Assembly (NCBI GenBank): GCA_903845195.1
Contig: CAIMWO010000052.1
Location: forward strand, 62,001-126,000
Direction of reading: 5' to 3'
Length of the DNA stretch: 64,000 bases
DNA from: an uncultured Phycisphaerales bacterium
GTDB taxonomy: Bacteria > Planctomycetota > Phycisphaerae > WQYP01
Shown here: piece after piece, positions 7,179 through 50,300 of the stretch
Position numbering within the stretch: position 1 is the stretch's first letter
Layout of the letters: every line of letters starts with the position of its first letter
Made by a program: the position numbers and the translations under genes
Notes under the pieces: generated by a model
What the model was told of the DNA's origin: nothing
The model's input: only the letters and a program-made list of their open reading frames with translations
The model's database searches: none

Positions 7179-7483
7179 AGAGGCATTGTAATGGAGCAGG
7201 CCAGAGTCGTGGAGGACATTCAGGCTCCGGAGTTCTCTTTCGGGAATTGCCTCTCAGTCTTAATCCCGCAGCCAAATCTTTTCGCCGAGTACATGACCGG
7301 AATCAATCACAATGGCCTTGAACGGGCGAGAGGACAGTCCGTGCAGTGGCGAGTGCTCTTTTAGAAAAAGGGCGGGGATGGGGCCGGGCTACCCCAGCAT
7401 CATTTTTCTGTTTGTTTGAGCGGCGGTTCCGAACGTCAGTCCGGTGGACTGGTTGCGACGAATTCCATGATTATAATCCGACG

Positions 7484-8770: not shown

Positions 8771-8846
8771 GGCAACTCCGAACCCCTCGCCCTCTCGTGC
8801 GTCCAATCGCTTACGACCCCGCTGCCGAGGCTGCATCAAGGAGTCC

Positions 8847-9902: not shown

Positions 9903-9916
9903 CCAGCAGACAGGAC

Positions 9917-11887
9917 ATGAAAGGCAAAACGATGTGGAAGATCATGGTTCTCCTCGTGGCGATCATGCTGTTTGACAAGGGGTATGCGTGGGCCGATATC
10001 CCAGCCTCGCAGCCATCCACCCAACCGGCCAAGATCGATCTCAAAGAAAGTGAGGCCGTGCGGGTTAATGGAGTGGATTTTCAACTCGTGGCCCCGAGGG
10101 TCTGGATCGTGCCTCTCGGCGACCTGCGGATCAGCATCCCGTTGGCCCTCAAGGTGACGAATCAAACCGACCGGGACATTCACTTGCTGGACACCTGCCG
10201 CATCGTCCTCACGGATGCAGCGGGCAAAACGCTTTCGGTCGTAGCCGACAAGCAAGAAGGCAACTTCCCAAGCCAGCCTCCGCTACTCACGCAAGGCCAG
10301 TGTGTGAACCTCAAAAGTCCCGCCCAACTGACGCTCGTCAGTGACCGACAGAGCAGCCTCCGGCTCAGCGGCGTGGATGGGCAGTTCAAACCGTGGCACA
10401 TCGATGGGCTGAAACCCGGCAAATACACGCTGGGCATGATCTACGAAAACGCCGAGGGTGATGCCCAAGACCCGTCGGTCTGGGTTGGCAAAGCCACCAC
10501 CAAACCATGGCCCATCGAAATCACGGACCATTCCGCTATCGTCTCGGAGCCTGCCGTCAAAGACGGCCTAGCGGTGCAGGTCACGCTACCCAAGGCAACC
10601 TTCGCCGTGAACGAACCCCTGACGTTCACCGTAGGTTTGACCAATACTTCCAAGAAGCCGTTCCAGCTTTTCGACCTTGATTACCAATGGGATTGGCAGA
10701 TGCGCATCGAGGGTCAGGGTCAAAATGGGGCATGGCAGGTCCACCGGCTCTCTGCCGAGGACCGACTTCCGTTCAACCCGACGCCTATGAAGGCAGGACA
10801 GAGCCGGGAGGTTCCGGGGGTACTGGACCATAGCGGAGCGGAAACCTTCGAGTATGTATGGGACAAGAAGCAGGGACGGGAAATTCTACCGGTCGAAAAC
10901 CTGCCTCCGGGTCGCTACCGTTTCACCTTGCAGATGGACTTGAAGGCTGATTCCACCCTCCAACGACCAAGACCCCCATTCTGGACCGGCCAGATCGCCA
11001 GCCGCCCCGTGGAATTCGAGATCGGCGACCAAGGTGTCCCGACTCCGCAAGCATCTAAACCGGTGCGGGTCAACGGAGCCGAGTTTCAGGTCATCGCCCC
11101 TTTGATCTGGCGGATTCCCATGAGTGAGCAGCCAACGACCTTCATCCCCTTGGAGTTAAGGGTAAGCAACCACTCGGATAAGGCCCTGCAACTGAATCTA
11201 GGCGACTGCGTGCATTTGAAGGATGCGGTGGGCAACGAGTTATCCATCCAGCGGGACGGCGATTCCGATTTTCCGTTCAAGCCGGTCGTCGTGGCGAAAA
11301 CCAAAAGCGCCCGCATCGACCGTCATGCCACCCTCTCAGTCGGTGCGACGGAAGGCACCTTCCGGCTCAGCGGCGCAGATGGCTTGGCGGGAGTTTGGTT
11401 TTTCGATGATCTGTTGCCGGGCCAATACACGCTCTTCATGACCTATGAAAACACGGCAGAGGCCAGCGAGCAAACGGTCAAAGCCTATGGTCCGCTCGCT
11501 ACGGACCCAAAGGACGTGCCCTTCTGGAGCGGCAAGGTCACGACCGAGGAATTGACCATCGAGATCACGGACACGACCGTGCTTGCTGCTGCCGAGGCGG
11601 CATGGCAGAAGGTGCTGGCGACGTTGCAGGCGGGCGACAAGAAGGCGCTGGGGGCGGTGGCCACGGCCAAGGGACTCCAGTCGCTCATAGGCGAGAAAGG
11701 CGATGCCCTGACGGCCCAGCAAATGCAGGCCCGAGAGCAAGTGTGGGCCAAATGGCCGTTGCGGTGGGTGAAGAAGTCCGAAACCACCGTCAACGCCACC
11801 ATGGGTCCGGAGGCCAAGGAACACGGGTTAGAGTTCGTGAAAACGTCCGAAGGCTGGAAATTCAATGAGTGGACGCCGGGGGAGTAA
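9917..11887 (+). CDS. Secreted protein with two tandem homologous domains
   Basis: Signal peptide; internal repeat (VRVNGVDFQLVAPRVW.../VRVNGAEFQVIAPLIW...); C-terminus EFVKTSEGWKFNEWTPGE. Confidence 0.65.
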   Translation: MKGKTMWKIMVLLVAIMLFDKGYAWADIPASQPSTQPAKIDLKESEAVRVNGVDFQLVAPRVWIVPLGDLRISIPLALKVTNQTDRDIHLLDTCRIVLTDAAGKTLSVVADKQEGNFPSQPPLLTQGQCVNLKSPAQLTLVSDRQSSLRLSGVDGQFKPWHIDGLKPGKYTLGMIYENAEGDAQDPSVWVGKATTKPWPIEITDHSAIVSEPAVKDGLAVQVTLPKATFAVNEPLTFTVGLTNTSKKPFQLFDLDYQWDWQMRIEGQGQNGAWQVHRLSAEDRLPFNPTPMKAGQSREVPGVLDHSGAETFEYVWDKKQGREILPVENLPPGRYRFTLQMDLKADSTLQRPRPPFWTGQIASRPVEFEIGDQGVPTPQASKPVRVNGAEFQVIAPLIWRIPMSEQPTTFIPLELRVSNHSDKALQLNLGDCVHLKDAVGNELSIQRDGDSDFPFKPVVVAKTKSARIDRHATLSVGATEGTFRLSGADGLAGVWFFDDLLPGQYTLFMTYENTAEASEQTVKAYGPLATDPKDVPFWSGKVTTEELTIEITDTTVLAAAEAAWQKVLATLQAGDKKALGAVATAKGLQSLIGEKGDALTAQQMQAREQVWAKWPLRWVKKSETTVNATMGPEAKEHGLEFVKTSEGWKFNEWTPGE

Positions 11888-11902
11888 TAGAAGGGAACTG
11901 CT

Positions 11903-12535
11903 ATGTGGAAAATCCCTGTTTGGCTGGTTGGGGTCACGATCCTCGTCATGGCATATGCCGCATGGGCCGAGGCCCCGGCCACGCAGCCGTCCACCCAACG
12001 GGCCACGGGCGACATCAAAGAAAGTGAGGCGGTGCGGGTCAACGGGCTGGATTTTCAGATCGTGGCACCCGTGGTGTGGATGATGCCAGTCGAGAAGGAG
12101 GAAACCCCGATCCCCTTGGTCTTGAAGGTCACCAACCACACCGACAAGGCCGTGACGTTGAATCTGTTCGACACCATCACCATCAGTATGAAAGATGCAG
12201 CAGGCAAGGAACTGCGGATCGACGGTGGACGTGATGGCACCACCCCGTGCCCACCATTGATCGTAGAGAAGGGCCAGAACGGGACCGTGGACCGCAGTGC
12301 CAAACTCCAACCCTTGGACGGGAAGCTCGGCCAGTTCCGCCTGATCGGCTCGGACGGGGCCGGAGGCATCTGGTACTTCGATGGCCTCAAGCCGGGGAAG
12401 TACACCATCAGCATGGCCTATGAAAACACCAAAGCAGGCCCCGAGGATGCGCCTAACTGGGTCGGCAAGGCCACGACCAAGGAACTGACCGTCGAAATCA
12501 CGGACAAGTCTGCTGCTTCGCAGCCCGCCCGCTGA
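11903..12535 (+). CDS. Secreted single-domain paralog of the upstream protein
   Basis: MWKIPVWLVGVTILVMAYAAWAEAPATQPSTQRATGDIKESEAVRVNGLDFQIVAPVVW matches the upstream repeats. Confidence 0.65.
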   Translation: MWKIPVWLVGVTILVMAYAAWAEAPATQPSTQRATGDIKESEAVRVNGLDFQIVAPVVWMMPVEKEETPIPLVLKVTNHTDKAVTLNLFDTITISMKDAAGKELRIDGGRDGTTPCPPLIVEKGQNGTVDRSAKLQPLDGKLGQFRLIGSDGAGGIWYFDGLKPGKYTISMAYENTKAGPEDAPNWVGKATTKELTVEITDKSAASQPAR

Positions 12536-20520: not shown

Positions 20521-21732
20521 TCAAGTAAAAAAGATTAAGCAATGTGAGGTGAAAGACAACCCATCATGGCTTGGTTGCGGCGGGGCGAACTTCTTCAGTG
20601 CCTCTTTGGCGGCAGCAAAACCCTGATCCGCTGCCTTGCGATACCATTTGACAGCTTCATTCTGGTCTTTTTCCACGCCCGTGCCATTCTCGTAGTAGAC
20701 GCCAAGATTATATTGACCGATAGCATTGCCCTGCTCAGCCGCTTTGCGGACCCACTTGACCGCCTCACGCTTGTCCGGTTCCACGCCCTTGCCAGTCTCG
20801 TAGCAGAGGCCAAGATAGCACTGGGCTTTGGCATCTCCCTGCTCCGCTGCCTTGCGGACCCACCCGAACGCTTCATGCCCATCTTGATTCACCCCTTTGC
20901 CCTCGAAGTAGCAGAGTCCGAGATTGTATTCGGCAGCAGCAAACCCCTGTTCTGCCGCCATGCGATACCATTTGACGGCTTCATGTTGGTCTTGTTCCAC
21001 GCCATCGCCGTTGAAGAAGCAGATACCAAGACCACATTGGGCCTTGGCGTCTCCCTGCTCCGCTGCTTTGCGGAGCCACTTGACCGCCTCACGCCAATCT
21101 CGACCAACTCCTTTGCCATCGGCGTAGCAGAATCCTAGATCGCTTTGGGCGGCGGCTAGTCCCTGTTCCGCCGCCTTCCGAAACCATTTGACTGCCTCAT
21201 ACCAGTCTTGTTCCATCCCGCTGCCGCTATAGTAGCAGACGCCGAGATTGTATTGGGCAGCGGCCAAATCCTGCTCCGCTGCCTTGCGATACCATTTGAC
21301 CGCTTCGTGGTGGTCTTGTTCCACTCCCGTGCCGTTGGCGTAGGCGAGACCCAGATTGTATTGGGAGGCGGCTAGTCCCTGTTCCGCCGCCTTGCGATAC
21401 CATTTGACCGCTTCGTGCTGGTCTTTCTCTACGCCGCTGCCTCTTTCGTAACAAAAGCCCAGATTGTGTTGAGCCTTGTCATATCCCTGCTCCACAGCCT
21501 TGAGATACCATTTGACCGCTTCCCGCTGGTCTTGCACCACGCCGTTGCCGCTATAGTAGCAAACGCCGAGATTGAATTGGGAATGCGCATCCCCCTGCTC
21601 TGCCCTCTTGCGCAACAACTCGACCGCTGGTGCAGTAGCCGTACTCGTGGTCGTATCCCTTGAACACGCCACTTGGCACAGCAATCCGACGACGACAAGG
21701 CCAAGAATGTTGAGCAGATGCAGACCTCTCAT
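20521..21732 (-). CDS. Sel1-repeat secreted protein
   Basis: 403 aa; many AxxQYNLGxCYxxGxGVExDxxEAVKWYRKAAEQG repeats. Confidence 0.9.
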   Translation of the reverse strand: MRGLHLLNILGLVVVGLLCQVACSRDTTTSTATAPAVELLRKRAEQGDAHSQFNLGVCYYSGNGVVQDQREAVKWYLKAVEQGYDKAQHNLGFCYERGSGVEKDQHEAVKWYRKAAEQGLAASQYNLGLAYANGTGVEQDHHEAVKWYRKAAEQDLAAAQYNLGVCYYSGSGMEQDWYEAVKWFRKAAEQGLAAAQSDLGFCYADGKGVGRDWREAVKWLRKAAEQGDAKAQCGLGICFFNGDGVEQDQHEAVKWYRMAAEQGFAAAEYNLGLCYFEGKGVNQDGHEAFGWVRKAAEQGDAKAQCYLGLCYETGKGVEPDKREAVKWVRKAAEQGNAIGQYNLGVYYENGTGVEKDQNEAVKWYRKAADQGFAAAKEALKKFAPPQPSHDGLSFTSHCLIFFT

Positions 21733-23576: not shown

Positions 23577-23939
23577 TCATGAGCCGTAGGTATTGAAGGT
23601 GAAAGTCATTCCTGTCAACGTCGAGAGAAACGTCACCACACAGGCAAGGCCCAGCGCCAGCCAGAATCTTCCTTTGCCGATATTGAACCAGTACCGGTGA
23701 AAAATAAACGTATTGAGACAAAGTGCCGTGACTGTCGGCAAATAGAACCCGAGGTCAAGATCGAAGACAATAGACGGATTAGGAATCATCCGGCCAAGAA
23801 TGCCGCTCGGATAGAACAGGAACAACGCCAAGACATGGGCGACAAAGATTGCCAGTGTGAAGATCAAGATGCGCCCGATCCTCAGCCGCAGGGACGTTTT
23901 CAACGATTTCTCGTTACGCAGGTTCAGCCAACGTCTCAT
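23577..23939 (-). CDS. Small TM protein at the end of the coupled array
   Basis: Start MRRWLNLRNEK at 23939, overlapping the upstream stop at 23936 (ATGA). Confidence 0.55.
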   Translation of the reverse strand: MRRWLNLRNEKSLKTSLRLRIGRILIFTLAIFVAHVLALFLFYPSGILGRMIPNPSIVFDLDLGFYLPTVTALCLNTFIFHRYWFNIGKGRFWLALGLACVVTFLSTLTGMTFTFNTYGS

Positions 23940-24472
23940 TCCTGTCTCCCCGTTCTGCTCAAGGTCGGTGTGCCACATTCAGGGCAACGGTCTTTGCTGG
24001 CACGTAGGTCGTAGCCGCAGTTCACGCAAAGTCCGGCCTGCTGGCGATATTGACGCCGAACTCGCCGCCAATGGTACGTTCCCCACAATGTGAGGACGGC
24101 GGACAACACTGCTACGAACCAGAAGGGGACGAAGAGAGCGTAATGGTAATCCCCCCATCGCTCGCCAGTCACAAGCGAAAAACCAAACACATTCCAAAAG
24201 TAGACATTCGTTCCCGGCACTCGTTCAAACTTCACTGCGGGCTTGTCAACCCAGTAGTGAAACTCGAACGGCGTTGTCAGTTCAACACCAGAAAGGGGGA
24301 CGTTGTGTTCCAGTCGCAATTGGCCACAGGAAGTCCAAAGAAATGTGCTTCCACGTGAGTTCCCATACTCGAATAACTCGTTCTGCCAATAGCTCCGCAC
24401 CCAGAGAGCCAGTGCCGCCACGAATAGCAGCAGTGAAAAGATGGCGAGGATGTTAAGGAACCAGCGTTTCAA
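23936..24472 (-). CDS. TM plus GYDLRAS zinc-ribbon protein (array member)
   Basis: Probable TTG start (LKRWFLNILAIFSLLL) overlapping the upstream TGA (TTGA); C-terminal CVNCGYDLRASKDRCPECGTP. Confidence 0.6.
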   Translation of the reverse strand: MKRWFLNILAIFSLLLFVAALALWVRSYWQNELFEYGNSRGSTFLWTSCGQLRLEHNVPLSGVELTTPFEFHYWVDKPAVKFERVPGTNVYFWNVFGFSLVTGERWGDYHYALFVPFWFVAVLSAVLTLWGTYHWRRVRRQYRQQAGLCVNCGYDLRASKDRCPECGTPTLSRTGRQE

Positions 24473-25065
24473 GTGATCCGTTCCTTTACAAAGCCTGTTG
24501 GGATCGGAGTGCCGCACTCGGGGCAGCGGTCACCGGGCAGGTGAGCACGCAGATCGTAGCCACAACTTTGGCAACACCCGCTTCTGCGTCGTCGGTGCTG
24601 TCGCCACAGGCGCAATGCCCGGCGCAGCAGCCAGATTGCAGTTAGGCCCGTGGCCAGCGTGAGGAACCAATACGGGAAGCGGATGTCGTTGATCGTGCCT
24701 ATCTGCCTCGTGCCTGATACTGATACAGCCCCGGTGTATGTAGGAGCATCCCGCTCCACATGGAATCCACCCCATGCCCAACCATTAAAACCCCAATCAT
24801 CGAGTTCCCCCCACCCGGGCATACGATGCCATTGCACTACCCCTTCATAGGGGGCGGGAAATCTGGGGTTTTCTTTCTTGGAGTCATAGACGATGCAGTC
24901 GAAGCCGATGCGGCCTGTGCCCGAAGCCACTACGAATTCCCGTCTGATTGAGTTGCTCACGATGAAATAGTCGTAGGCACAGTAACTCTCGATCCACAGC
25001 CCCACGGTCGCCACAGAGAGCAGCAGCGACAGTCCAGTAACTATGTTGAGCAGCCAGCGTCTCAT
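24469..25065 (-). CDS. TM plus GYDLRA zinc-ribbon protein (array member)
   Basis: Start MRRWLLNIVTGLSLLLSVATVGLW; C-terminal CQSCGYDLRAHLPGDRCPECGTPIP; ATGA overlap upstream. Confidence 0.65.
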   Translation of the reverse strand: MRRWLLNIVTGLSLLLSVATVGLWIESYCAYDYFIVSNSIRREFVVASGTGRIGFDCIVYDSKKENPRFPAPYEGVVQWHRMPGWGELDDWGFNGWAWGGFHVERDAPTYTGAVSVSGTRQIGTINDIRFPYWFLTLATGLTAIWLLRRALRLWRQHRRRRSGCCQSCGYDLRAHLPGDRCPECGTPIPTGFVKERIT

Positions 25066-25610
25066 GCCTTGGCCTCGCTCGGGGCCGGGATTGGTGTGCC
25101 ACATTCTGGGCAACGGTCTATGCTGGCCCGCAGGTCGTAGCCGCACTGGCGACAGCAAAGGTGGCCGCTGGGTACGTGGCGGCGGCGAACGAAAGCGATG
25201 CACCACCATGCAGGAAGGATGGCGAAGACGAGAACCAGAAACCAGTGAGGAACAAAAAACGCCCATGAACGCACTGGGCCAAAATAGCGGTCCACGTAAA
25301 AGAGAAATCCCCAGCGGTTCCAGTACACCGTCTCGTATGAAACCGGTTGCTGGTAAACAGCGCTCTCGTTATAGCGAGGCCAATGCGTGTAGTTCCACCC
25401 GTTCCCACCCGGTGTAGCGTCTTTGTCTATGTCAGCAAATAACTGTAGCCGTCCCGGCTCGGTGATAATCCCGATGCGGTCAATGTATCTACCGATCTGG
25501 CCGTACCAGAGGAAATCGTGGTCAAAGTGAGAGTCCACCCACTGGACGATGGTGGCTATGCAAAACAGCATCGACGCTCCGGCAAAGATGTGGAACAGCC
25601 ATCGTCTCAT
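25062..25610 (-). CDS. TM plus GYDLRAS zinc-ribbon protein (array member)
   Basis: Start MRRWLFHIFAGASMLFCIATIVQW; C-terminal CRQCGYDLRASIDRCPECGTPIP; ATGA overlap upstream. Confidence 0.65.
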   Translation of the reverse strand: MRRWLFHIFAGASMLFCIATIVQWVDSHFDHDFLWYGQIGRYIDRIGIITEPGRLQLFADIDKDATPGGNGWNYTHWPRYNESAVYQQPVSYETVYWNRWGFLFYVDRYFGPVRSWAFFVPHWFLVLVFAILPAWWCIAFVRRRHVPSGHLCCRQCGYDLRASIDRCPECGTPIPAPSEAKA

Positions 25611-26176
25611 GCCTTGGCCTCGGCCTTGGTGGCAATCGGCGTCCCGCATTCAGGACAGCGTTCTTTGCTGGCCCGCAAATCGTAGCCACATTTCAGGCAG
25701 TGCCCTACCTTTGCCCCATGCCGCCTTCGCCACGCCCGCCAAGCCCACAGAACCGGCAGAACCAAGAACATCAGAGCGGAAATCCAATGCGGCAGAGCGA
25801 AGAAAGCAATTCGACAGACCACCCGACCGTCCTTTACGGCTTCGCTGTAATCCGCAACATTGCCCCATGTCCAGTCACGACTCTCTCTTGAATTCGCCCA
25901 GCCATTGAACACATAGCCGATCCGACCATCTCGGATGTGGCTAAAAAACCATTCCCTTGGCCCTACCGGTCGTGTGCTGCCCACACCGAGCCAGCGTGTG
26001 AAGGCGTACATCTGAAACTCGACACTTCCTTTCGAGGAATGCAGGCACAGGCAACATGTTCCTTCCTTGCCGACCCCGAAACTCTCGGTCGTCCCACTCC
26101 GTACCCACAGCACCACGGTCGCCACGCAGAGCAGCAGTGAGAAGGCGGCGAGAATGTTGAACAGGCGGCGTTTCAT
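25607..26176 (-). CDS. TM plus GYDLRAS zinc-ribbon protein (array member)
   Basis: Start MKRRLFNILAAFSLLLCVATVVLWVRS; C-terminal CLKCGYDLRASKERCPECGTPI; ATGA overlap upstream. Confidence 0.65.
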   Translation of the reverse strand: MKRRLFNILAAFSLLLCVATVVLWVRSGTTESFGVGKEGTCCLCLHSSKGSVEFQMYAFTRWLGVGSTRPVGPREWFFSHIRDGRIGYVFNGWANSRESRDWTWGNVADYSEAVKDGRVVCRIAFFALPHWISALMFLVLPVLWAWRAWRRRHGAKVGHCLKCGYDLRASKERCPECGTPIATKAEAKA

Positions 26177-26688
26177 CCCTTTCCTTCGTTCATCAGCGGG
26201 ATTGCCATGCCGCATTCGGGGCAACGGCCTTTGCTAGCCCGCAGATCGTAGCCGCAGGTGGGACAGATGTGGAGAAAGTGGCTTCGTAGAATAGACCGGT
26301 AGGCTCTAAGCCAGAGGAGGGGAAGCAGGAGGAAGATGAGGGCGAGCGACCAGTAGGGAATTTCGAGGGCATTTCCGGTGCTTGCGGCGTTGTTGATTGC
26401 AATTAATCGAGAAGTATAGAAGTTGCCCCATAGGAAGATGGGGCAATTCTCACTGTAGGAGAAACCGGCGAATATCCACGTACTGGCGGGAGGACTCGGG
26501 GCAAGGCTTGGGGGCGTAGTGACCCAGCAGAAAGTGATTCCGCCCATGGAGGAGGTGACGGATTTGTAGGGACGAGTGGGAATGCGGATGTGAATCATAC
26601 CGACGTAACTGATGAGCCAGAGGAGGATGGCGAATTCGAGCAGGAGTGTGGACAGGGTGGCGAGGATGTTGAAGAGCCAGTGTTTCAT
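26173..26688 (-). CDS. TM plus GYDLRAS zinc-ribbon protein (array member)
   Basis: Start MKHWLFNILATLSTLLLEFAILLWL; C-terminal CPTCGYDLRASKGRCPECGMAIP. Confidence 0.65.
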   Translation of the reverse strand: MKHWLFNILATLSTLLLEFAILLWLISYVGMIHIRIPTRPYKSVTSSMGGITFCWVTTPPSLAPSPPASTWIFAGFSYSENCPIFLWGNFYTSRLIAINNAASTGNALEIPYWSLALIFLLLPLLWLRAYRSILRSHFLHICPTCGYDLRASKGRCPECGMAIPLMNEGKG

Positions 26689-26762
26689 CGAATTGTTTCC
26701 TTCACCACGCCTGCGGGGAAAGATGTCCTGCATTTCGGACAACGGCCTTCGCTGCCCGCAGG

Positions 26763-27281
26763 TCAGAGCCATTCTGGGGGAATGCCCACGAGGTTGCAGA
26801 GTGCGAGGACTTCCGGCGATAGCTTGGTGCGGTCGTAGGTGCGTGTGATCCATTTCCCGCCGTCGTCCCAACTCACCAAGAAGGCATCTGCGTCTCGTGC
26901 GAAAGTTTGGCTGACCGGAAGGCGACCAAGGGCGGCATCTAGCGATGATCGCTGAGCTTCGGGCATAGGACCATCGTGGCCGTGCAAACCACTGACCCCC
27001 ATCCTCACGTTCTTGAAAAGTGTGACATGTCCTCGGATTCCATCATGGTAAATACTGCAATTCGTCATCAAGTGTATTTGTCCACCGCTGAAAAAGGAAA
27101 CCAGCACGACCGTGTTAGAAGTGCGGACGTTGCCGTCAATGCGTTCATGCGGCAGGCGCATTTCGGCGAGAGTGAACGTGCCGGGCCATGGCGGAGCGGG
27201 CTGGTGGAAGAAGCGTATTGCTGCCGCCAGACAAATAAGCAGCGAAATGGCGGCGAGGATGTTGAACTGGTAGCGTTTCAT
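26763..27281 (-). CDS. Small TM protein related to the array, without a zinc ribbon
   Basis: Start MKRYQFNILAAISLLICLAAAIRFF; N-terminus like array members. Confidence 0.55.
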   Translation of the reverse strand: MKRYQFNILAAISLLICLAAAIRFFHQPAPPWPGTFTLAEMRLPHERIDGNVRTSNTVVLVSFFSGGQIHLMTNCSIYHDGIRGHVTLFKNVRMGVSGLHGHDGPMPEAQRSSLDAALGRLPVSQTFARDADAFLVSWDDGGKWITRTYDRTKLSPEVLALCNLVGIPPEWL

Positions 27282-28377: not shown

Positions 28378-28989
28378 TCATTTCGGCGAAGGTGTGAACC
28401 TTCTATGCAACTCGATCAGAGAACCATAGTCGCCACCGTCAGCAGAGCGAATTGCCGCAAGGTATTCTTGACGAATTGTGCTTTCATTTCCCAGTGTATC
28501 TTCAGGCCAATCAGTCGGGGGATGATCATGAAGTATCAACCAGATGTTTGCCAACATTCTCGACCACCGACCATTCCCATTCAGGAAGGGATGGATTGCT
28601 ACGGCTCGGTGGTGCAACATCGCAGCCTGCTCGATCATTGGCCTCTCGCTCTTCTCCCAGAACTCAAGATCGCCCAGCAAGCCGTAAAGCTGCGATTCGA
28701 TTTGGTTGGGGGGAACACCAAGATTCAGATCACGGAGCCGTCTCTCTCCAGCCCAGACCCACACTCGGCCAAACATTTCTCCGTGTAGCGATTTGAGCCA
28801 GTGAAGATCAAAGGCGGCTTGCCGCCGAGTGGGCTTGGCGGACATGTACTTGATGACGACAAGCCGAATGTTTTCGGCTTCTACCGCATTTAGGGCAGTA
28901 CGGGTCTTGACGCTCCTGATCTTCAGACCAGAGATGTCATCGAGCGGTGTCTCGCCACTGATCGGCTTCCAGTCTGTCATTGCAATCAC
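28378..28989 (-). CDS. Fic-domain protein (mobile mystery protein B-like)
   Basis: HPFLNGNGRWSR matches the Fic motif HPFx[D/N]GNGRxxR; overlaps the XRE gene stop (ATGA). Confidence 0.85.
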   Translation of the reverse strand: MIAMTDWKPISGETPLDDISGLKIRSVKTRTALNAVEAENIRLVVIKYMSAKPTRRQAAFDLHWLKSLHGEMFGRVWVWAGERRLRDLNLGVPPNQIESQLYGLLGDLEFWEKSERPMIEQAAMLHHRAVAIHPFLNGNGRWSRMLANIWLILHDHPPTDWPEDTLGNESTIRQEYLAAIRSADGGDYGSLIELHRRFTPSPK

Positions 28990-29372
28990 TCAGCCCAGAG
29001 TTTTCGTGCTGGTCCCGCAAGAAGCTCGTGAACGGATCGACGCATCATCTGTTTGTACTTGGCGTGATTGACGGCCTGTGCTTCTAGTGCCGCCGTCCCT
29101 TGCACCATTTTCATCAGTCGCTGAGCTTTCTGCCTCCCTTGCTGTTCACGGAGGTCTTCGGGATCAGTGGTGGAGCGGAGTTCGAGCGTCATGCCCAATA
29201 CAGCAGCGAGGGATTGAATATCGGCGTAACTAGCTTTTTGGTGTTTGCCGGAGAGGATGCGCTGTGTGGTGCGAAATGCAACGCCGCTCTTCTGGGCCAG
29301 CGTGATCGCTGGCATACTCAGTTCCCGACGACGTAGGTCAAGTTCTGCGAATATGTTGTTCTGATTCTTCAT
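28986..29372 (-). CDS. XRE-family HTH regulator paired with Fic
   Basis: 128 aa; SMPAITLAQKSGVAFRTTQRILSGKHQKASYADIQSLAAVLG looks like an XRE HTH. Confidence 0.8.
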   Translation of the reverse strand: MKNQNNIFAELDLRRRELSMPAITLAQKSGVAFRTTQRILSGKHQKASYADIQSLAAVLGMTLELRSTTDPEDLREQQGRQKAQRLMKMVQGTAALEAQAVNHAKYKQMMRRSVHELLAGPARKLWAE

Positions 29373-32175: not shown

Positions 32176-32691
32176 TCACACGAACCAATGGAACATGACG
32201 TAGAAAAGGTGGCAGATGAAATCCAACCCATGCCCAATCGGGACGCCGGGACCAGACGGACCAAAAATGCGGCGGATCATGAAAAAATAGATCAAAGTAT
32301 AAAACACAAAACCTGCAAGAGGCATAGTTGAGGATGCGCCTCCCGGAATGTAGGTGTGCGAATAGCCGGTGAAATTACCTGACGATCCGTAACTCATTGT
32401 GGTGATCACGGTAGTGCCTGTGACTCCGAGCAGCAGGAAAAAGAAGACCACCTCTGCGAGGTAATTGTGATGGGCAAAGAATCCATGGTTCATATATTCA
32501 TCCGCCGCTTTGGATTCCGGAGTGTCACCGACCTCGATTTCAATCTGATCGACAATCGGGGCGGGAGTTACCTCCGCTGAAGGAGTCTCCGTGACAACAG
32601 GTTTGTGACCGGGAACAAAAACGTAGGTAACTCCCAAGAATCCCATCCAAAGAACAATGATGAAGAGAATGAAAAGTACAAACACTTTCAT
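32176..32691 (-). CDS. Hypothetical membrane protein
   Basis: Start MKVFVLFILFIIVLWMGFLGVTYVF; three TM segments. Confidence 0.55.
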   Translation of the reverse strand: MKVFVLFILFIIVLWMGFLGVTYVFVPGHKPVVTETPSAEVTPAPIVDQIEIEVGDTPESKAADEYMNHGFFAHHNYLAEVVFFFLLLGVTGTTVITTMSYGSSGNFTGYSHTYIPGGASSTMPLAGFVFYTLIYFFMIRRIFGPSGPGVPIGHGLDFICHLFYVMFHWFV

Positions 32692-32777
32692 GATGATCTC
32701 CAAAATCTTGAGATTGGTCTCACCGATCCTGTTAAGAGACGCAGCTAATAACCGGTCCATTCGCAGTGGGCCAGCCC

Positions 32778-33665
32778 TCATACAGGCAGATACATTGACG
32801 AGCTTTCAGTGGGGCGAGCGTGAAGGTATCGGCCAGTGGTGGCGATACTGGAATGACCGAGAGTGGCCTGTACGAGGGAGATGCTCGCCCCACGTTCCAG
32901 TGCGTGGCTGGCGTGGCCGTGACGCATCCAGTGTGGACTAACCAGCTTTTCAATCCCGGCACGCTGAGCAGCTTTCCGCACAATGCGCCACACCTGCATC
33001 GGACTGAGATGGTGCTTCTTTTTGCTGCGGAACATTGGCGCATCAACATCAGCATCGCCACGGAGTGCCACCAATTGGTGCCATACGGACGCTGGAAGCA
33101 TGATCGTGCGTGTTTTGTTACGTTTCCCACAGACCGTCACTTGGCCCGCATCATGACGGGGCTGAAGGTCGCTCCATTTGAGCGAACACAATTCAGAGAC
33201 CCGAAGACCAGCGACATACAGAAGAGTCAGCAGCATGTGGTTCCGGGGCTGGTTTTCCAACACCAACATCCGCTGCACTTGTGCTTCGTCGAGAATCCGA
33301 TCCGCCAGCCCATCCCGAAAGCCCGGCAGGAGCAGCGGACGGGCCGTGTCAAAAGGCAAATAGCCCAGCCGATGGCCGAAGGCGAAGAGGGATTTCACCG
33401 CCGAGAGCGCCCGATGAATGGAGGCGGGCTTGAGAATGCCGGAGTCCAGCGCCGTGGAAAACTGCTGGAGATCGCCAAGGGTGACATGATGCAGCGGCTT
33501 GGCGACCATGACCATGAACCGCTCTACATCAGCCCGGTATGCACGTTGGGTGTGACGGCTGCGACCGTGGAGCCAGAGGGCCAGCAACTGGCCATCGTTG
33601 TCGGCCTGTTGGGGGAGAGACATTCCAAGATTCGCAGGTTCGATTTTGGTGATGGCGTTTTCCAC
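32778..33665 (-). CDS. Tyrosine recombinase/integrase (XerC/D-like)
   Basis: 295 aa; GLRVSELCSLKWSDL, HWMRHGHASHALERG, LGHSSIATTGRYLHA: catalytic R...HxxR...H...Y pattern. Confidence 0.93.
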   Translation of the reverse strand: MENAITKIEPANLGMSLPQQADNDGQLLALWLHGRSRHTQRAYRADVERFMVMVAKPLHHVTLGDLQQFSTALDSGILKPASIHRALSAVKSLFAFGHRLGYLPFDTARPLLLPGFRDGLADRILDEAQVQRMLVLENQPRNHMLLTLLYVAGLRVSELCSLKWSDLQPRHDAGQVTVCGKRNKTRTIMLPASVWHQLVALRGDADVDAPMFRSKKKHHLSPMQVWRIVRKAAQRAGIEKLVSPHWMRHGHASHALERGASISLVQATLGHSSIATTGRYLHARPTESSSMYLPV

Positions 33666-33708
33666 GGGTTCCTCCGCACGATTGATAATGGCAATTCTCT
33701 TTCATAGA

Positions 33709-33826
33709 CCTAAACAGATAACCGACAGCTTCTGAACGATCTCTGACAACTTTTGAACACCTTCTGACTACGATCTAACCAACATTTGAGCGATGTCTGA
33801 CACTATTTAGGTGGTTGTCAGACATC
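33709..33826. repeat. Helically phased TCTGAMC array plus an 11-bp inverted repeat
   Basis: Motif starts at 33731, 33742, 33752, 33763, 33774, 33785, 33796 (10-11 bp spacing), followed by GATGTCTGACA(33792-33802)...TGTCAGACATC(33816-33826). Confidence 0.8.
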
Positions 33827-33839
33827 ATCGATGCATGAT

Positions 33840-34328
33840 CTAGCCAACACCTGTACGGCGCAGGTGCCGAAAAACGGCCCGCAGCACCGTTGATTCATCT
33901 ACTCCAGCGGTCCCTTGAGGGAAGGCCGCAGCGATGGCCTCCTCGATCTGTGCGGCCGTCGCTGACTGAATCCCAAGAGCCTTCACACCGTCCAGCAAAG
34001 CGTCATGCGTGGTTGCTTGCGGACGTGAACAATGCCGACCACGTGCGGCCAGCGGGCCTTCTTTTCGGCGCTCATAAAAAAGTACATATTCGCCGTTGGA
34101 GCCGATCCCAGTTTCACGGACGGCAAGAATCTCCCGCTGCATTTCGAGGGTGTAAAACGGACGACGGTTAGTGATCGAGTACAACGGCGAAACGAAGACA
34201 CCACGCTGGACGTGCGAGTAGAAAGCGGCACGACTCATACCAACGGCCTCGGCCATTGCGGAGACACTGATGATGGCCTTCATGCGAGTTGGTGTAGTTT
34301 GAGTAGGCACGGTTTGATGCTCCTTCAA
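33840..34328 (-). CDS. Putative HTH DNA-binding protein
   Basis: 162 aa; SVSAMAEAVGMSRAAFYSHVQRGVF looks like a helix-turn-helix. Confidence 0.55.
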   Translation of the reverse strand: MKEHQTVPTQTTPTRMKAIISVSAMAEAVGMSRAAFYSHVQRGVFVSPLYSITNRRPFYTLEMQREILAVRETGIGSNGEYVLFYERRKEGPLAARGRHCSRPQATTHDALLDGVKALGIQSATAAQIEEAIAAAFPQGTAGVDESTVLRAVFRHLRRTGVG

Positions 34329-35275
34329 GTCGTGGACACAGAGAGATGGGATGCACCAGCGGCGGTGAGCATGCGCCCATCTTCTGATTTCGTGACCAAT
34401 CCAAGTCGGATCAATTCGCTTTCGATGACGGCTTCGATGGTTCTCTTGGGCAGGCTCAGTTGCGTGGCGATCATATTGAGCCGCAACGGGCCTTGAGCAG
34501 CACGAAGCAGGTCGAGATAGCGGCGTTCGAGAATGTCGAGGCCGAGATGGTCATAGCCTTCGATCTCGCACATGCGGGCCAGATGCGTGACCGTGATCGT
34601 GTCGGCTCCTTCGGCACGTGCAGTGCGGCGGGCCGCTTCCAGCAGTCGGATTGCGATGCGTGGCGTGCCACGACCTCTTAACGCTAAGCCCTTGATCGCT
34701 TCCTCTTCGATGGGCCAGTGCAGTCCCTTCGCACGCTGTGCGACCAAGTGAACAATCTCGTCTTCACTGTAGTGTTCGAGATGTGCGACGATCTTGAACC
34801 GATCCCGCAACGGCTTGGCCAGCGCCCATTCGTCGGTCGTCGCCCCGATGAACGTGAATGGCGGAAGCATGATATTTTTTCGGTCGCCACCCAGAAATAA
34901 TCGTCGCTCTTCGAGACAGCGATACAGAGTGGTTTGTGCGATGGCCGGAAGCTCGTGAATTTCATCCAAAAACACAACATCTCCGACCTCGGCCATCATG
35001 AGTAGGCCGTGCAGATGACCCGGCGTGAGAATGTTCTGCGCCAACTCTTCGTAGCACTTCGCCCCGAGTTCGGCCGCAAAAAGTCCGGACAAGAGGCTCT
35101 TGCCAACTCCGGGAGGCCCCACCAGTAGCACATGTGGTGCGGCGGTTTCGGCCGTCGCAGCGGAGCGGTCGTTGAAGAAAGCGTCGAGAACAGTTTTTAG
35201 CTGGCGCACTGTTCGTTTCTGCCCAACGACGTGGTCGAGGGTCGGAGGTGCGCCATGAAGGTCGGAATTTTCCAT
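34325..35275 (-). CDS. RuvB-like AAA+ ATPase
   Basis: 316 aa; LDHVVGQKRTVRQLKTVLDA, GPPGVGKS, VVFLDEIHEL, GATTDEWALAKPLRDRF, RGTPRIAIRLLEAARRTA, RuvB-like C-terminal winged helix. Confidence 0.88.
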   Translation of the reverse strand: MENSDLHGAPPTLDHVVGQKRTVRQLKTVLDAFFNDRSAATAETAAPHVLLVGPPGVGKSLLSGLFAAELGAKCYEELAQNILTPGHLHGLLMMAEVGDVVFLDEIHELPAIAQTTLYRCLEERRLFLGGDRKNIMLPPFTFIGATTDEWALAKPLRDRFKIVAHLEHYSEDEIVHLVAQRAKGLHWPIEEEAIKGLALRGRGTPRIAIRLLEAARRTARAEGADTITVTHLARMCEIEGYDHLGLDILERRYLDLLRAAQGPLRLNMIATQLSLPKRTIEAVIESELIRLGLVTKSEDGRMLTAAGASHLSVSTT

Positions 35276-35290
35276 TTTAGTTTCACTCCG

Positions 35291-35656
35291 TTAATACTCA
35301 GACGGTAAAAGGATGGTTGTGACTGAGCGATCCCATTCCGTGATCACCCAGAGTTTCTCGTTGGCGCTCGTCAGATAGGAACTCATCACACGATCCTGAT
35401 GATCACGGTCACCTTCATGGGCAATAGCGTTGTCGTTCAGCGTTTTGTCTTCGGCGGGCATATCGCCCCAGTCACCTATGCGATGTCGTTCAATGAACTT
35501 CGCCGGATCGTCTCCGGACTTCTGGAGTGCTGCGATGGCTCCCGGTGTGGCAACCATTTGGCCGAGCTTGAATTTAGGGGTGGGGGGAGAAGAAACGGCA
35601 GCGACCATTTTGAATTCCTCCAGATCGAGGTGATGGGACGACAACTTGCGTTCCAC
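35291..35656 (-). CDS. Conserved 'plasmid-related' type hypothetical protein
   Basis: 121 aa; FKLGQMVATPGAIAALQKSG..PAKFIERHRIGDWGDMPAEDKTLNDNAI...LWVITEWDRSVTTILLPSEY. Confidence 0.6.
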   Translation of the reverse strand: MERKLSSHHLDLEEFKMVAAVSSPPTPKFKLGQMVATPGAIAALQKSGDDPAKFIERHRIGDWGDMPAEDKTLNDNAIAHEGDRDHQDRVMSSYLTSANEKLWVITEWDRSVTTILLPSEY

Positions 35657-43389: not shown

Positions 43390-46059
43390 ATGGCCACCAC
43401 CAAAAAGCAACGGAGCCGTAGTATGGTTCGATCCACGACGACAGGTTCGGCTGTTCTCCCACCTGCGGTTGGCAAAAAGCAGTCCGAACGTCTCACGTTG
43501 CCCCGGCTCGAACGCAAACTCTTTGAGGCGTGCGACATCCTTCGTGGCAACATGGACGCCTCCGAGTACAAGGAGTTCATCTTTGGAGTCCTGTTTCTCA
43601 AGCGTCTGAACGACCAGTTCACCGAAGACCGAGCGGCACTACGAGGGGAGTATCAGAACAAGGGACTGAAGCCTGCCCTCATCGAGAAGCAACTCAGTAA
43701 TCCCGACAAATACGACTTCTTCGTCCCCGACGAGGCCCGTTGGAGTTACACCGATGGCAAGGGGCGCAACCACGGTATTGCACATCTGAAGACGGCAGTC
43801 GGCTCTGGTCTAAACAAAGCCCTTGCCGCCGTTGAGGATGCCAACCCCAACACGCTGCAAGACGTTCTGAAGGGCATTAACTTCAACCGCAGGATCGGCC
43901 AGCGGACTCTCGATGACAGCACGTTGGTGGAATTCATCCAGCACTTTAGCGATATCCCGTTGAGCAATGCCGATTTCGAATTTCCTGACCTCCTCGGTGC
44001 CGCCTATGAATACCTCATCAAGTATTTCGCTGACAGTGCCGGGAAGAAGGGCGGCGAGTTCTATACCCCCACGGAAGTCGCCCGGCTTCTCGTCCAGATC
44101 ATCGAACCCCACGAAGGCATGGCGATCTACGATCCAACTGGCGGCTCGGGCGGTCTGCTAATCCAGTCGAAGCAATACGCCCAAGAGATCGGCGGCGATC
44201 CCCGCAACATCGAACTTGCGGGGCAGGAGCTTAACGGCAGCACTTGGGCCATGTGCAAGATGAACATGCTGCTGCATGGCATCCGCAGTGCCGACATCCG
44301 GCACGGCGATACCCTCAAAGAGCCGCTGCATCTGGACAAGAACGGCGAGCTTCGTCGCTTTGATCGTGTGGTAGCCAATCCTCCGTTCTCCCAGAACTAC
44401 AGCACGCAGGACATGAAGTTCAAAGAACGCTTCACCCACTTCATGCCTGAGAGCGGCAAGAAGGCCGACTTCATGTTTGTTCAGCACATGGTTTCCTCGC
44501 TCAAGAGCGATGGGAAAATGGCCGTCATCATGCCTCACGGCGTGCTGTTCCGTGGCGGTGACGAGAAGGCCTGCCGCCAACGATTCATCAAAGACCGCAT
44601 TCTCGAAGCTATCATCGGCCTGCCGAGCAATCTCTTCTACGGCACCGGCATCCCCGCCTGCATCCTCGTCATCAATAAACAGGGAGCCAGAACTCGCAAG
44701 CAGGTGCTTTTTATCAATGCCGACCGTGAGTTCCGTGAGGGCAAGGCCCAGAACTACCTCCGGCCCGAAGACATTGAGAAGATCACGCAGGTCTATCGCT
44801 TCCGGCAGGAAGTTGAGAAGTATTCTCTACTGGTAACACTCGACGAACTAGAGCAGGAAGACTTCAACCTCAACATCCGCCGCTATGTGGACAATTCGCC
44901 ACCACCCGAGCCGCATGATGTGCGGGCACACCTTAATGGTGGCATCCCCATCACCGAAATTGAACAACTCGCTGGTTACTTCGCCAACTACGACGCCGTG
45001 AAGGGCCTACTCTTCAAGAACCGGGACGCCCGCTACAGCGACTTCGCTTCGGGAGTGCTATCCAAGGACAGCCTCAAGTCCTTGATCGAATCGGCACCCG
45101 GCGTCCAAGCCAAACATACCGCTTTTCACAAGGCCATCGACGGCTGGTGGCGTAAGAACGTGGCCGAGATCGAACGTCTTCCAGAGACCAAGAACGTGTT
45201 CGAGCTACGCCGTCTCTACATTGACAGCCTCGCCAAGACTCTTACCCCGCAGGACATGTTGGGAGTGCATCAGGTACGGGGGGCCGTCGCCAGCTACATC
45301 AAGGGATTGGACAGCGATCTCAAGTCCGTGGCGGCGAGTGGGTGGAATGCCGACCTGATTCCCGAGGAGGACATTCTGAAATCGCAATTCCCTGACGTGC
45401 TGGAGAAGATCGAGAAGGATCAGACTCGAATCGCTGAATTGGAGGGCTTATTCGCCGCTGCTAATGAAACTGATGAAGAGGATGCGGACCTTGAGAACGT
45501 GGACACCGAAAATGGAGTGTTGCCCAAAGCGTTGGTGAAGGTACTGAAAGAAGAACGCAAGAAATTGGCGGGCGAGGTCAAAGAAATTCAGAAGAGCGCC
45601 AAAGAGCGACGACAAGATGCCAAACGCACCGAACGGGCAGGTGCCTTCAGGAGCAACGGTGCCACATTGACTGAGGCCAGCGACACCGCATCCGAGGGCC
45701 GTGAAAAGCCCATGAGAATCGAAGAGATCGACCAGCAACTCGCCCGGCACACCGAGTTGGACGACGAACTCAAAACCCTCAAGGCTCACATGCGGGATGT
45801 GGAAAGGCAAAAGGAAGAGATGATCGCTGCCGCCCGTGCCAAAATCAGTGAGACTGATGCCAAGGAACTCATCCTTGCTCGGTTTCAGCGGTTGCTGGGC
45901 GAGCAGTTTGAGGGCTACCTGTGGCAATACCAGCGGGCTTTCATCGCCGCCGTCGAAAATCTCTGGGATAAATACGCTATGACCACGAAGCAGATTCTCG
46001 CCGAACGGGACCGGGAAGCGGCCCAACTCAACCAGTTCTTGAAGGAGTTGGGGGTATGA
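43390..46059 (+). CDS. hsdM: Type I restriction-modification system methyltransferase subunit
   Basis: [29 protein letters not shown]-terminal helical HsdM domain. Confidence 0.95.
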
Positions 46060-47360
46060 GTGAATTGCGGCCACCCATTGGCTGGAGCGTCAGGAGGCTT
46101 GGCGAGATCACCGAAGTGGTCAGTGGTGGTACCCCATCCCGTGAGAATCCCAGTTTCTGGGAGAATGGAACGATTCCGTGGGCTACGCCGACCGACATCA
46201 CCGACTGTAACTCACGCCTTCTGGCATCTACTGCGGATCGCATCACGCCGAAGGGGTTGCGGAGTTGTGCTGCACGACTTCTGCCGCCCGCTTCGCTGCT
46301 GATGACCTCCCGTGCGACTCTTGGCGAGATCAGGGTAGCTGCAACAGAGATTTGCACCAATCAGGGATTTAAGAGCTTGGTCCCCACGCCGCTGATCGAC
46401 AACTGGTATCTTTTTTACCAGATGCAGTTCAGCAAGCCACGGTACTCTGTTCTGGGGAAGGGCAGCACATTTCTCGAAGTCAACACTGGCGATACGCAGT
46501 CCTTTCCCATCCTCTACGCTCCACTACCCGAGCAACACAAGATTGCCCGCATTCTGGAGAGCGTTGATAACCTGATCGAAAAGACGGAAGCCCTGATTGC
46601 CAAGTATCAGGCGGTCAAGCAGGGCATGATGCACGACCTGTTCACCCGTGGCGTGGACGAACACGGTCATTTGCGCCCCAGTTGCGCCGAAGCCCCCTCA
46701 CTCTACAAACAGTCCGAATTGGGGTGGATTCCGAAGGAGTGGAGGGTCGCAGTGATGGTTGATCTGACTCTCAAGATTGTCGATGGAGTCCATCACACAC
46801 CAGAGTACGTTGAGCATGGCATCCCGTTTGTCACCGTAAAGAATTTGACGCAGAGTGATGGCATTGATTGGCAAGAACTTAATTACATTACCGAACTCGA
46901 CCATTCTGCGTTTATCCTGCGGGCTGACCCGAAACCCGGCGACGTGCTTGTAACCAAAGACGGGACGCTCGGTGTAGCTCGCATTGTTCCGAAAAACGTT
47001 CGGCCATTCAGCATTTTTGTCTCGGTTGCTCTCTTGCGTCCGAATCCTGCTAAGTGCCTTTCAAAACTTATTTGGTTGTTCTTTGACAGTGGCACATACC
47101 TATGCCAGATGGGAAGACTTTCGGCGGGAACAGGACTCAAGCATATCCATCTGGAGCATTTCCGTGAGTTTCGGGTCGCTACGCCGCCACTTGATGAGCA
47201 GGACAGAATGTTTGTTCGTCTCGACGCATCCGGCAGTAATCTTCTTCGAGAGAGAGCGCATCTACAAAAACTACACAAGATCAAGACTGGCCTCATGCAA
47301 GACCTTCTCACCGGCAAGGTCCGGGTGAAGATTGATGAGGAGGATGTGGCTCATGTCTGA
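46056..47360 (+). CDS. hsdS: Type I restriction-modification specificity subunit
   Basis: Two target-recognition-domain-like halves ([22 protein letters not shown]..., [19 protein letters not shown]...); overlaps hsdM by ATGA. Confidence 0.93.
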
Positions 47361-50300
47361 ACACGCCTTTGTAGAAAAGCCATTTCTCGCCCAACTGGCC
47401 TCCTTGGGCTGGGAAATCGCAGATCAGGGCATGGGTGTGCCGACCGATCCGACGAAGAGTTTCCGCACCAGCTTTCGGGAGGTCATCCTGAAGGACAGGT
47501 TCCGCAAGAGTCTGCACGACATCAATCGCACGGATCAGGGCCAGCCGTGGCTGACCGAAAAGCAGATTGACGACTTCATCGAGGCGTTGCTCAACCCGCC
47601 GACCAAGAGCCTCGTAGAGGCCAACGAGATGGTGCTGAAACTGCTGTTTCGGGCACAAGTGGAGAGGAACGAGATCACCGGCGAAGAGTGCCCCAACGTC
47701 AAGCTGATCGATTTCGAGCATCCCGAGCGAAACCACTTCCTTGCCATCAACCAGTTTCGCATTGACACGCCGGGGGCAGGCAAGGGCTTCATTATTCCCG
47801 ACATCGTGCTGTTCGTGAATGGCCTGCCCTTGGTCGTGGTCGAGTGCAAGGACGCCAACGCCTTCACCGCCAACCCGATGTACGAAGCCTTCCAGCAGTT
47901 GATGCGGTACAGCGATCAGCGAGAAGAAACGAAGCTGGCCGGGATGAAAGAGGGCGAGCCGAAACTCTTTTTCACGAATCAGCTTCTCATCCGCACCAGT
48001 GGCGACACGGCTGACTTCGGCAGCATCACGGCCACCAATGAGGAGTTCTTCTCGCCGTGGAAGGATATCCACCCTGAGAAATACCGGGACTACAAGCCGC
48101 CCCTCGGACATATTCGACAGCAAGAAACACTGATACTGGGAATGCTGCCAAAGGAAACCCTCCTCGACCTCATTCGCAACTGCATGGTATTCATGGATGT
48201 GGGCAAGGTGCGGGCCAAGATCATCGCCCGTTACCAGCAGTACCGGGCAGTCTGCAAGATCATTCACAGGCTTCGCACGGGAAAGACGCCGGAGGACCGA
48301 TCTGGCGTCGTCTGGCACACGCAAGGGTCTGGCAAATCTCTCACGATGGTCTTTGTCATCCGTAAGCTCCGCATGTGCGAGGACCTGAAGGACTTCAAGG
48401 TCTGCCTCATCAATGACCGAAAGGACCTCGAAAAACAACTTGGCGAAACAGCGGCGCTTACCGGCGAGAAAGTTACACCCATCACAAGTTCTGACTACCT
48501 GAAGGTGAAGTTGGCAGGACCCGCCTCGAACTTGAACTTAGTGATGATCCACAAATTTAAGGAGAACCTAAACCGGGACATGCCGGACTACATGGAGGAC
48601 GTGCTGGGCAAAGTGCCCGAGTACGCTCGCATCGGCATGGTCAATGAGTCCGAACGCATTTTGCTGATGATTGACGAGGCCCACCGCACGCAGTCAGGCG
48701 ATCTGGGTGACAACCTTTTTGAGGCGTTTCCCAATGCGACTCGTCTGGCCTTCACCGGGACGCCCCTGATCGTGGTGAAGGACAAGAAGACCACGACCCA
48801 GCGGTTCGGGAGTTACATCGACAAGTACAAACTCCAAGACGCCGTGGACGATGGAGCGACGGTGCAGATTCTCTACGAGGGGAAGACTGCGGATACCGCC
48901 CTGAAGGAGAAGTCCAAGTTCGATGACAAGGTGGATGCAGTTGCCGAGAAACACATCGCTTCCCAGATGCAGAAAGCCGAAAACGTCGAATTGGTGAAGA
49001 AGATTGCGGAAAAGCAGAATCGTTCCTTCGATAACCTGATGAAGGAGCTTTCGGACGCTGAAGTTAAGGCGTTGAAGAAGAAGTGGGGCACCACCGGTGA
49101 CATCATGGAAGCCCCGAAGCGAATCGAGGCCATCTCCGCCGACTTGGTGCGGCACTACATCGACAACATTCTGCCCAACGGCTTCAAGGCCCAAGTGGTC
49201 TGTGACTCCAAGTTGGCAGCCGTGCATTACAAGACCTACATCGACAAGGCTGTCGCAGAGAGGTTGGCCGAGGAGCAGGCCAAGCCCGCATGGACGGGTG
49301 ATCCCCATAAGTTGCCGGAAGACCGGCGAGCCGAGTACCGGGACGACCAGCTTTGCCAGAAGATCGCCTTCCTCAAGTCAGCGGTGGTCGTCTCGTCCGA
49401 CGGAACCAATGAGCGGCTGGTGATTACGCAGGCCCGCAAGCACGGCCAGAAGATCGATGCCGTCGAAAACTTCAAACGGCGGTTCGACTACGCCAACCAC
49501 GAGAAAGTAAACACCGGAGTCGCCTTCCTGATTGTGTGCGACATGCTGTTGACCGGTTTCGATGCCCCCATCGAGCAGGTGATGTACATCGACAAGAAGG
49601 TGAAGGATCACAACCTGCTACAAACCATTGCTCGGGTGAACCGGGTCGCCAAAGGCAAGACTCGGGGCTACATTGTGGATTACATTGGACTGACCGACCA
49701 TCTCAAGAAGGCGCTCTCCATCTATGCCGCAGACCAGCAGAAGGACCTGCACGATGGCTTCAAGGACATCAACAGCGAGCTTCCGATTCTGGAGGATCGA
49801 TACCGACGCCTGCTGCAATTGTTCCAAGCGCAGAAGGTGACCAACATCGAAGCGTGGGTGAAGCAGGAGATCGCCGATCCTCAGAAGAACTATGAGATTC
49901 TCGAACAAGCCATCGAGGCCATGAAAGACCTGCGGCTCCGGCAGACGTTTGAGGTCAACCTCAACGCCTTTCTTCAAAGCATGGACATCATTCTGCCGAA
50001 TGCTGCGGCCAATCCCTTTAAGATTCCGACCAAGCGATTCGGCTACCTGTTGGCGAAGGTCAAGGATCGGTACAAGGACGATAGCCTCAATATCTCTGGA
50101 GCCGGGGAGAAGGTGCGGCTGCTTATCAACGAGCATCTCATCAGCCTCGGCATCAATCCGAAGATCAAGCCGGTCGAACTCCTATCGTCCCGGTTCATTA
50201 CAGAATTGGAGAAGAACAAATCGCCCAAGGCCAAGGCCAGCGAGATGGAACATGCCATCCGCAAGCACTGCAAGGTACACCTCGAAGAAGACCCAGTGTT

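Follow-up and report, generated by a model that had tools for sequence, protein, structure and literature searches.

The window, by which we mean the whole stretch of 64,000 nucleotides that was analysed, carries on its minus strand a gene for a RuvB-like AAA+ ATPase (34325..35275; 316 aa), a gene for a 162-aa winged-helix (wHTH) protein predicted to be of the AlpA/Xis type (33840..34328), and a gene for an Xer-like tyrosine recombinase (int; 32778..33665; 295 aa). The order RuvB-like ATPase, HTH protein of about 160 aa and recombinase recurs, with few exceptions, across the loci of the Planctomycetota. The gap between the HTH gene and the recombinase gene is occupied by a non-coding array of 11-bp units (33706..33824), which adjoins a predicted recombination site resembling dif (33678..33705). 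The earlier note on this DNA, which described the array, overlooked three things: the dif-like core beside it, the operon's third gene, which is RuvB-like, and the fact that one recombinase can be exchanged for another. A conserved neighbour of these genes, also on the minus strand, encodes a 121-aa protein of the LGQ-VATPGA family (35291..35656), which is found near the module in nine loci and in the L098 island; homologues in L052, L055-L057, L059-L061 and L064 lie on either side of the module, and the two copies tested gave no Pfam match. The module is present in full once more in the same genome (L052; G000:C31, approximately 8326-11174), there with a recombinase that is 60% identical, an 11-bp array of its own (z22 of 6.3) and a diverged core.

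Read on the coding (minus) strand, the unit of the array has the consensus TGTCnRAnnnn, and 11 in-phase copies lie between 33706 and 33824, with spacings that are mostly 10-11 bp and in one case 12 bp. The earlier note had listed seven TCTGAMC-like heptamers (at 33731, 33742, 33752, 33763, 33774, 33785 and 33796) and two weaker copies (at 33721 and 33709), all nine of which are present where it placed them. The positions stand, but the strict motif does not: of the seven copies, just the one at 33731 reads TCTGAMC, and it is the phasing that constitutes the signal. Counting heptamers was rejected as a test of the array because it is misleading, strict TCTGAMC occurring 15 times in the window versus 19.1 expected, that is, without enrichment. 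On a measure of periodicity at 11, 22 and 33 bp the array scores highest of 63,890 window positions, and its lag-11 autocorrelation reaches a z of 2.9-3.1 relative to dinucleotide shuffles. Tandem Repeats Finder reported nothing at the array, because its copies are too divergent. The perfect 11-bp inverted repeat to which the last copy had been assigned (33792-33802 / 33816-33826; span 33792..33826, given no strand) is indeed there; since TGTCWGACA is nearly self-complementary, it can also be explained as two direct copies that are in phase at a distance of 22 bp, and the inverted-repeat reading was folded into the direct array. A search of the source genome found no further copies of the array, no terminator was found at it, and the lack of any Rfam match in 32500-35500 led us to reject an RNA element.

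In 19 homologous loci the gap between the HTH gene and int shows 11-bp phasing, even though the gap sequences differ. Combined over these 19 gaps, which are not fully independent samples as some of the loci are mutually related, z amounts to 11.5 at lag 11, 8.5 at lag 22 and 7.4 at lag 33, the next best lag giving 3.4, and no peak at lag 11 is seen in the controls, which were taken from inside int and from upstream of ruvB. Furthermore, an 11-bp motif matrix (a tandem-motif model) whose 16 training loci included neither the window nor its paralogue placed the window's array first of 1182 tiles, at 57.9 versus 24.0 for the next unrelated tile. Phased motifs upstream of homologous integrases, which the earlier note had set beforehand as the thing to look for, were thus found, and the observation of a phased array is confirmed. 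In the window and in most group I loci the array reaches the core, in phase with it, and does not lie at the 5' end of the operon; in the window the 11-bp phase runs on through the core, where there are two more in-phase 11-mers. The array of L035 consists of 21 consecutive copies that run into that locus's core. In other loci the array partly overlaps codons. L055, L057, L059, L061, L062 and L105 have similar arrays at a distance from the core, at the ruvB-HTH junction, and one of these modules encodes a serine recombinase; beside the serine recombinase itself the array is weak in L064 (2.7% of shuffles were as good) and absent in L105.

The predicted core, ATGAAAGAGAA-ttgcca-TTATCAATCGT, is a 28-bp site of 11-6-11 architecture on the minus strand that sits 12 bp before the start codon of the recombinase. 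When both strands of the 64 kb were scanned with a position weight matrix built from ten group I loci, the window being excluded, 33678-33705 was the best place in the window, with 16.0 bits versus 11.0 at the next unrelated place. A core whose 11-bp inverted arms enclose a 6-bp centre is found near the start of int, in the same position class, in 24 loci (the window and 23 others). The inner ends of the arms are typically TAA...TTA, the centres vary between loci, and among the spacers of 5-8 bp that were tried it was 6 bp that gave the best palindromes. Examples are the cores of L106 (ACGCAAGATAA-gtcccg-TTATCTTGCGT) and L060 (TGGGCGGATAA-gtgacc-TTATCCGCCCA); that of the window is weakly palindromic (7/11). 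Two loci fail leave-out tests: within its own locus the L052 core comes 227th, and L061 fails the group II test. Group II loci have an extra direct repeat on the flanks of the core; it carries the arm sequence GCGATAAT, falls within the terminal parts of the HTH and int genes and is reminiscent of the accessory motifs in the IRS of TnpI. There is one strong core per island, in single copy where tested. Scored for the similarity of its arms to these cores, E. coli dif comes out above most of its own shuffles, 5% of which reach its score.

By its sequence, the recombinase is a relative of Xer and not XerC/XerD: its RKHRH/Y residues are present, and it scores 159-163 bits against the NCBIfam XerC/XerD models, below their cut-offs of 330-335 for the housekeeping enzymes. 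Besides the paralogue mentioned above it has homologues in other Planctomycetota. Its domains are a SAM-like core-binding domain and a catalytic domain, preceded by 33 residues, and it is without an arm-binding domain. The proposal that the array consists of arm sites of the integrase does not agree with this domain composition, and it is further unsupported because arrays are also located at ruvB-HTH junctions, one of them belonging to a module that encodes a serine recombinase. Since the recombinase has no arm-binding domain, the wHTH protein is the likelier occupant of the array.

The class of the wHTH protein points in the same direction. Of 18 members, 17 match the excisionase family PHROG 66 and 13 match Pfam AlpA, while the window's own copy matches excisionase families weakly. 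Its predicted fold resembles those of RdfS, MerR and BldC, the best match being the RdfS excisionase (8dgl; probability 0.99, E 0.05), a weak match that is informative at the level of class only. We therefore place the 162-aa protein, on these similarities, in the excisionase (AlpA/Xis/RdfS) class of wHTH proteins. It has been reported that members of this class bind direct repeats cooperatively, in head-to-tail fashion and with one helical turn from repeat to repeat (PMC7498355, PMC11963761), and that Apl of phage 186 has sites at 10-11 bp, five at attP and seven between promoters (PMC7498355). Because these published arrays of recombination directionality factors (RDFs) are close to ours in spacing and copy number, the wHTH protein appears to be the likeliest occupant of the array, and the earlier suggestion of a same-face protein array belonging to the recombinase/HTH pair is borne out to the extent that the HTH protein falls in a class that binds one-turn repeats. 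The protein also has an extra C-terminal domain, predicted to consist of three helices, whose likeness to domain III of RuvA is only suggestive: hhalign gave a score of 22.5 versus 16.4 for the best of 60 column shuffles, at a probability of 11.5%, the Foldseek match to RuvA was not significant, and hmmsearch did not return RuvA. Across the phylum Planctomycetota, 9 of the 392 genomes sampled have the wHTH gene, as do 17 of 170 of one family, and no relatives were found in the plasmids, phages or viral contigs searched.

The RuvB-like ATPase has the RuvB domain order (RuvB_N, AAA lid and RuvB_C winged helix) over its full length, and its Walker A, Walker B and arginine finger are intact in the alignment. 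It stays below the NCBIfam equivalog cut-offs for RuvB (228 versus 282 bits and 201 versus 299 bits), and a canonical RuvB is also present in all eight genomes checked, so that the ATPase of the module is an additional paralogue. RuvB matches in plasmid records were considered as relatives of the module and set aside, as they look like ordinary RuvB.

The recombinase of the module is interchangeable. Small serine recombinases of resolvase size replace the tyrosine recombinase behind RuvB-HTH in L064 (10289-10888) and L105 (8887-9576), and a comparison of L103 with L105 shows that the whole RuvB-HTH-recombinase block has been swapped, tyrosine-type versus serine-type, between flanks that are 78-90% identical on both sides. 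The islands that harbour module loci also contain restriction and anti-restriction genes. One integrated island was delimited: the module of G463 is located inside a 57-kb insertion in comM (G463:C1:3970610-4027638; L111-L113, L098), bounded by the comM halves, with a gene for a 640-aa large serine recombinase at its left end, and the intact counterpart of comM is present in G351. As this island carries its own large serine integrase, the recombinase of the module is probably not its integrase; a smaller element may be nested inside the island. In several other genomes large serine recombinases are encoded 4-40 kb from modules. No tRNA was found in the window or in the 22 loci scanned, and integration anchored at a tRNA gene was rejected.

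Some further observations concern the islands and the window at large. The genus of G463 uses comM as an insertion hotspot for large-serine-recombinase islands (L132, L133, L134): G467 and G402 have different islands of this type at the same spot, where G351 is uninterrupted. In L058, inverted IS-like copies of 1.2 kb (6163-7341 and 11191-12369; 98.9% identical) flank the module, and the right one begins inside the 3' end of int, which is truncated before the catalytic tyrosine. The window also encodes a type I restriction system (HsdM, HsdS and HsdR) followed by a YgjP-like metallopeptidase (43390-51413), and in the G463 island HsdR lies next to a protein similar to the latter. At 28378-29372 a Fic/DOC-family gene overlaps an upstream gene for a 128-aa HTH protein, possibly forming a toxin-antitoxin pair. 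The genes at 20521-21732 and 61315-62370 are internally repetitive and have diverged DNA-level repeats in common, the second having Sel1 repeats according to Pfam, and the small membrane- or lipoprotein-like genes at 23577-26871, which include DNA blocks that are 75-86% identical, are likely tandem duplicates.

What could the array be for? That its periodicity is due to chance, or is a by-product of base composition or coding, is hardly credible: the z of the window alone is moderate and the arrays of other loci share sequence with codons, but the combined signal of the 19 loci with its clean controls, the first rank out of sample and the non-coding position of the window's array all argue otherwise. 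A second reading holds that the array is an operator only, through which the wHTH protein would autoregulate the operon and/or the recombinase gene and have no structural role in recombination. Excisionase-type proteins are often also regulators, as is Apl (PMC7498355), and the arrays at ruvB-HTH junctions lie off the core, as would suit an operator; the array that ends in phase at the core and not at the operon's 5' end, the lack of phasing upstream of ruvB, and the lack of a sigma-70-like promoter in 33600-33900, where it should be noted that planctomycete promoters may differ, make this reading an unlikely one.

The two remaining alternatives concern the core as much as the array. If the module were that of an integrative element, the core would be attP, the array an excisionase arm as in phages and ICEs, and the wHTH protein would set the direction of the reaction. 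Such a reading would fit the proximity of an excisionase-class protein to a tyrosine recombinase, and the islands in which the loci lie. Integration through the core would, however, have separated the HTH gene from int, whereas in chromosomal copies the core lies intact between the two genes, which makes an ordinary attP unlikely; in addition, the two halves of comM enclose the G463 island, which has a large serine recombinase at one of its ends, the recombinase of the module has no arm-binding domain, and the chromosome of G205 contains no second copy of the L055 core. Taken together, we regard integration as quite improbable. Very unlikely, finally, is an integron-like platform in which the core would be an attI-like site that captures DNA beside int. 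The core is directly upstream of int, and paralogues differ in the DNA that follows int (L055/L057, L107/L108); the recombinase does match integron-integrase models, but weakly (99 bits versus a cut-off of 265), repeated attC-like sites are absent, and each island has one core-like match.

We favour the view that the array has an accessory function within a complex recombination site, and that the module most likely resolves multimers or cointegrates of islands or plasmids, a reading to which we assign a probability of about 0.58. The wHTH protein would occupy the TGTCnRA units in a cooperative manner, head-to-tail and on one face of the helix, and its bending of the DNA would give a defined nucleoprotein structure beside the dif-like core, so that the array would serve as the accessory, topology-setting part of the site. 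The Xer-like recombinase would cleave the core at 33678-33705, and the target of the RuvB-like ATPase would be the synapse or complex, or else the Holliday junction made by the tyrosine recombinase, where it would have a motor role like that of FtsK or RuvAB elsewhere. FtsK is known to act at dif (PMC5357621), and in the Tn3 family serine and tyrosine versions of the resolution module can replace one another (PMC7157771). Together with the site, the three genes would form one module, carried by mobile islands, that resolves multimers or cointegrates instead of integrating the island. We infer this purpose, the best supported one, because of the single sites per island and the resolvase-sized serine enzymes. 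A bolder version, which we consider doubtful, is that the wHTH protein joins an excisionase-type domain to a RuvB-binding domain resembling domain III of RuvA. It would then polymerise on the array and load a dedicated RuvB-type motor beside the dif-like site, so that a Holliday-junction motor would drive element-encoded Xer-like (or serine) recombination in a self-contained dimer-resolution machine independent of FtsK.

Each part of the module has known relatives, and the combination looks undescribed: the open-access literature, to which our search was directed, yielded no description of such a module. If the reading is true, a single site brings together a RuvB paralogue, a filament of an excisionase-like protein and an exchangeable recombinase of the tyrosine or serine type. 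The module would add to the poorly known mobile elements of the Planctomycetota and provide a test system for the action of a RuvB-type motor in site-specific recombination, and, if it is real, an 11-bp TGTCnRA array abutting a dif-like core could serve as a DNA signature for annotating islands in this phylum.

The module can be compared with several known systems. With RuvA-RuvB branch migration it has in common an ATPase of full-length RuvB domain order, but there is no RuvA gene in the module. With the RDF arrays of lambda Xis, phage 186 Apl and ICEMlSym RdfS (BldC being a non-RDF relative) it has in common the AlpA/Xis winged helix and the direct repeats about one helical turn apart, whose many weak copies would suit a protein that binds cooperatively and head-to-tail. 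Unlike RDFs, the wHTH protein of the module appears to have an extra C-terminal three-helix domain and its array numbers up to 21 copies (L035), and its partner is a simple tyrosine or serine recombinase in an operon with a RuvB paralogue. The TnpI/IRS system of Tn4430 likewise combines an Xer-like recombinase with a site just upstream of its gene that has an inverted core and direct accessory motifs, and the interchangeability of tyrosine and serine forms is likewise seen in the Tn3-family modules TnpR-res and TnpS+TnpT-rst (PMC7157771). No Tn3 transposase was noticed among the ORFs of the window and the neighbourhoods. In contrast to TnpI/IRS, the accessory motifs of the module are an 11-bp array that apparently belongs to a separate wHTH protein, and a RuvB-like ATPase is added. 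Resolution of chromosome dimers by Xer at dif, and of plasmid dimers at cer/psi, is controlled by FtsK or relies on accessory sequences with ArgR/PepA. The 11-6-11 core with its TAA...TTA inner ends, the Xer-class recombinase and the AAA+ motor are features of the module too; its recombinase, motor and accessory protein, on the other hand, are all encoded by the element in one operon, its motor is of the RuvB type and not FtsK, and its site touches its own recombinase gene.
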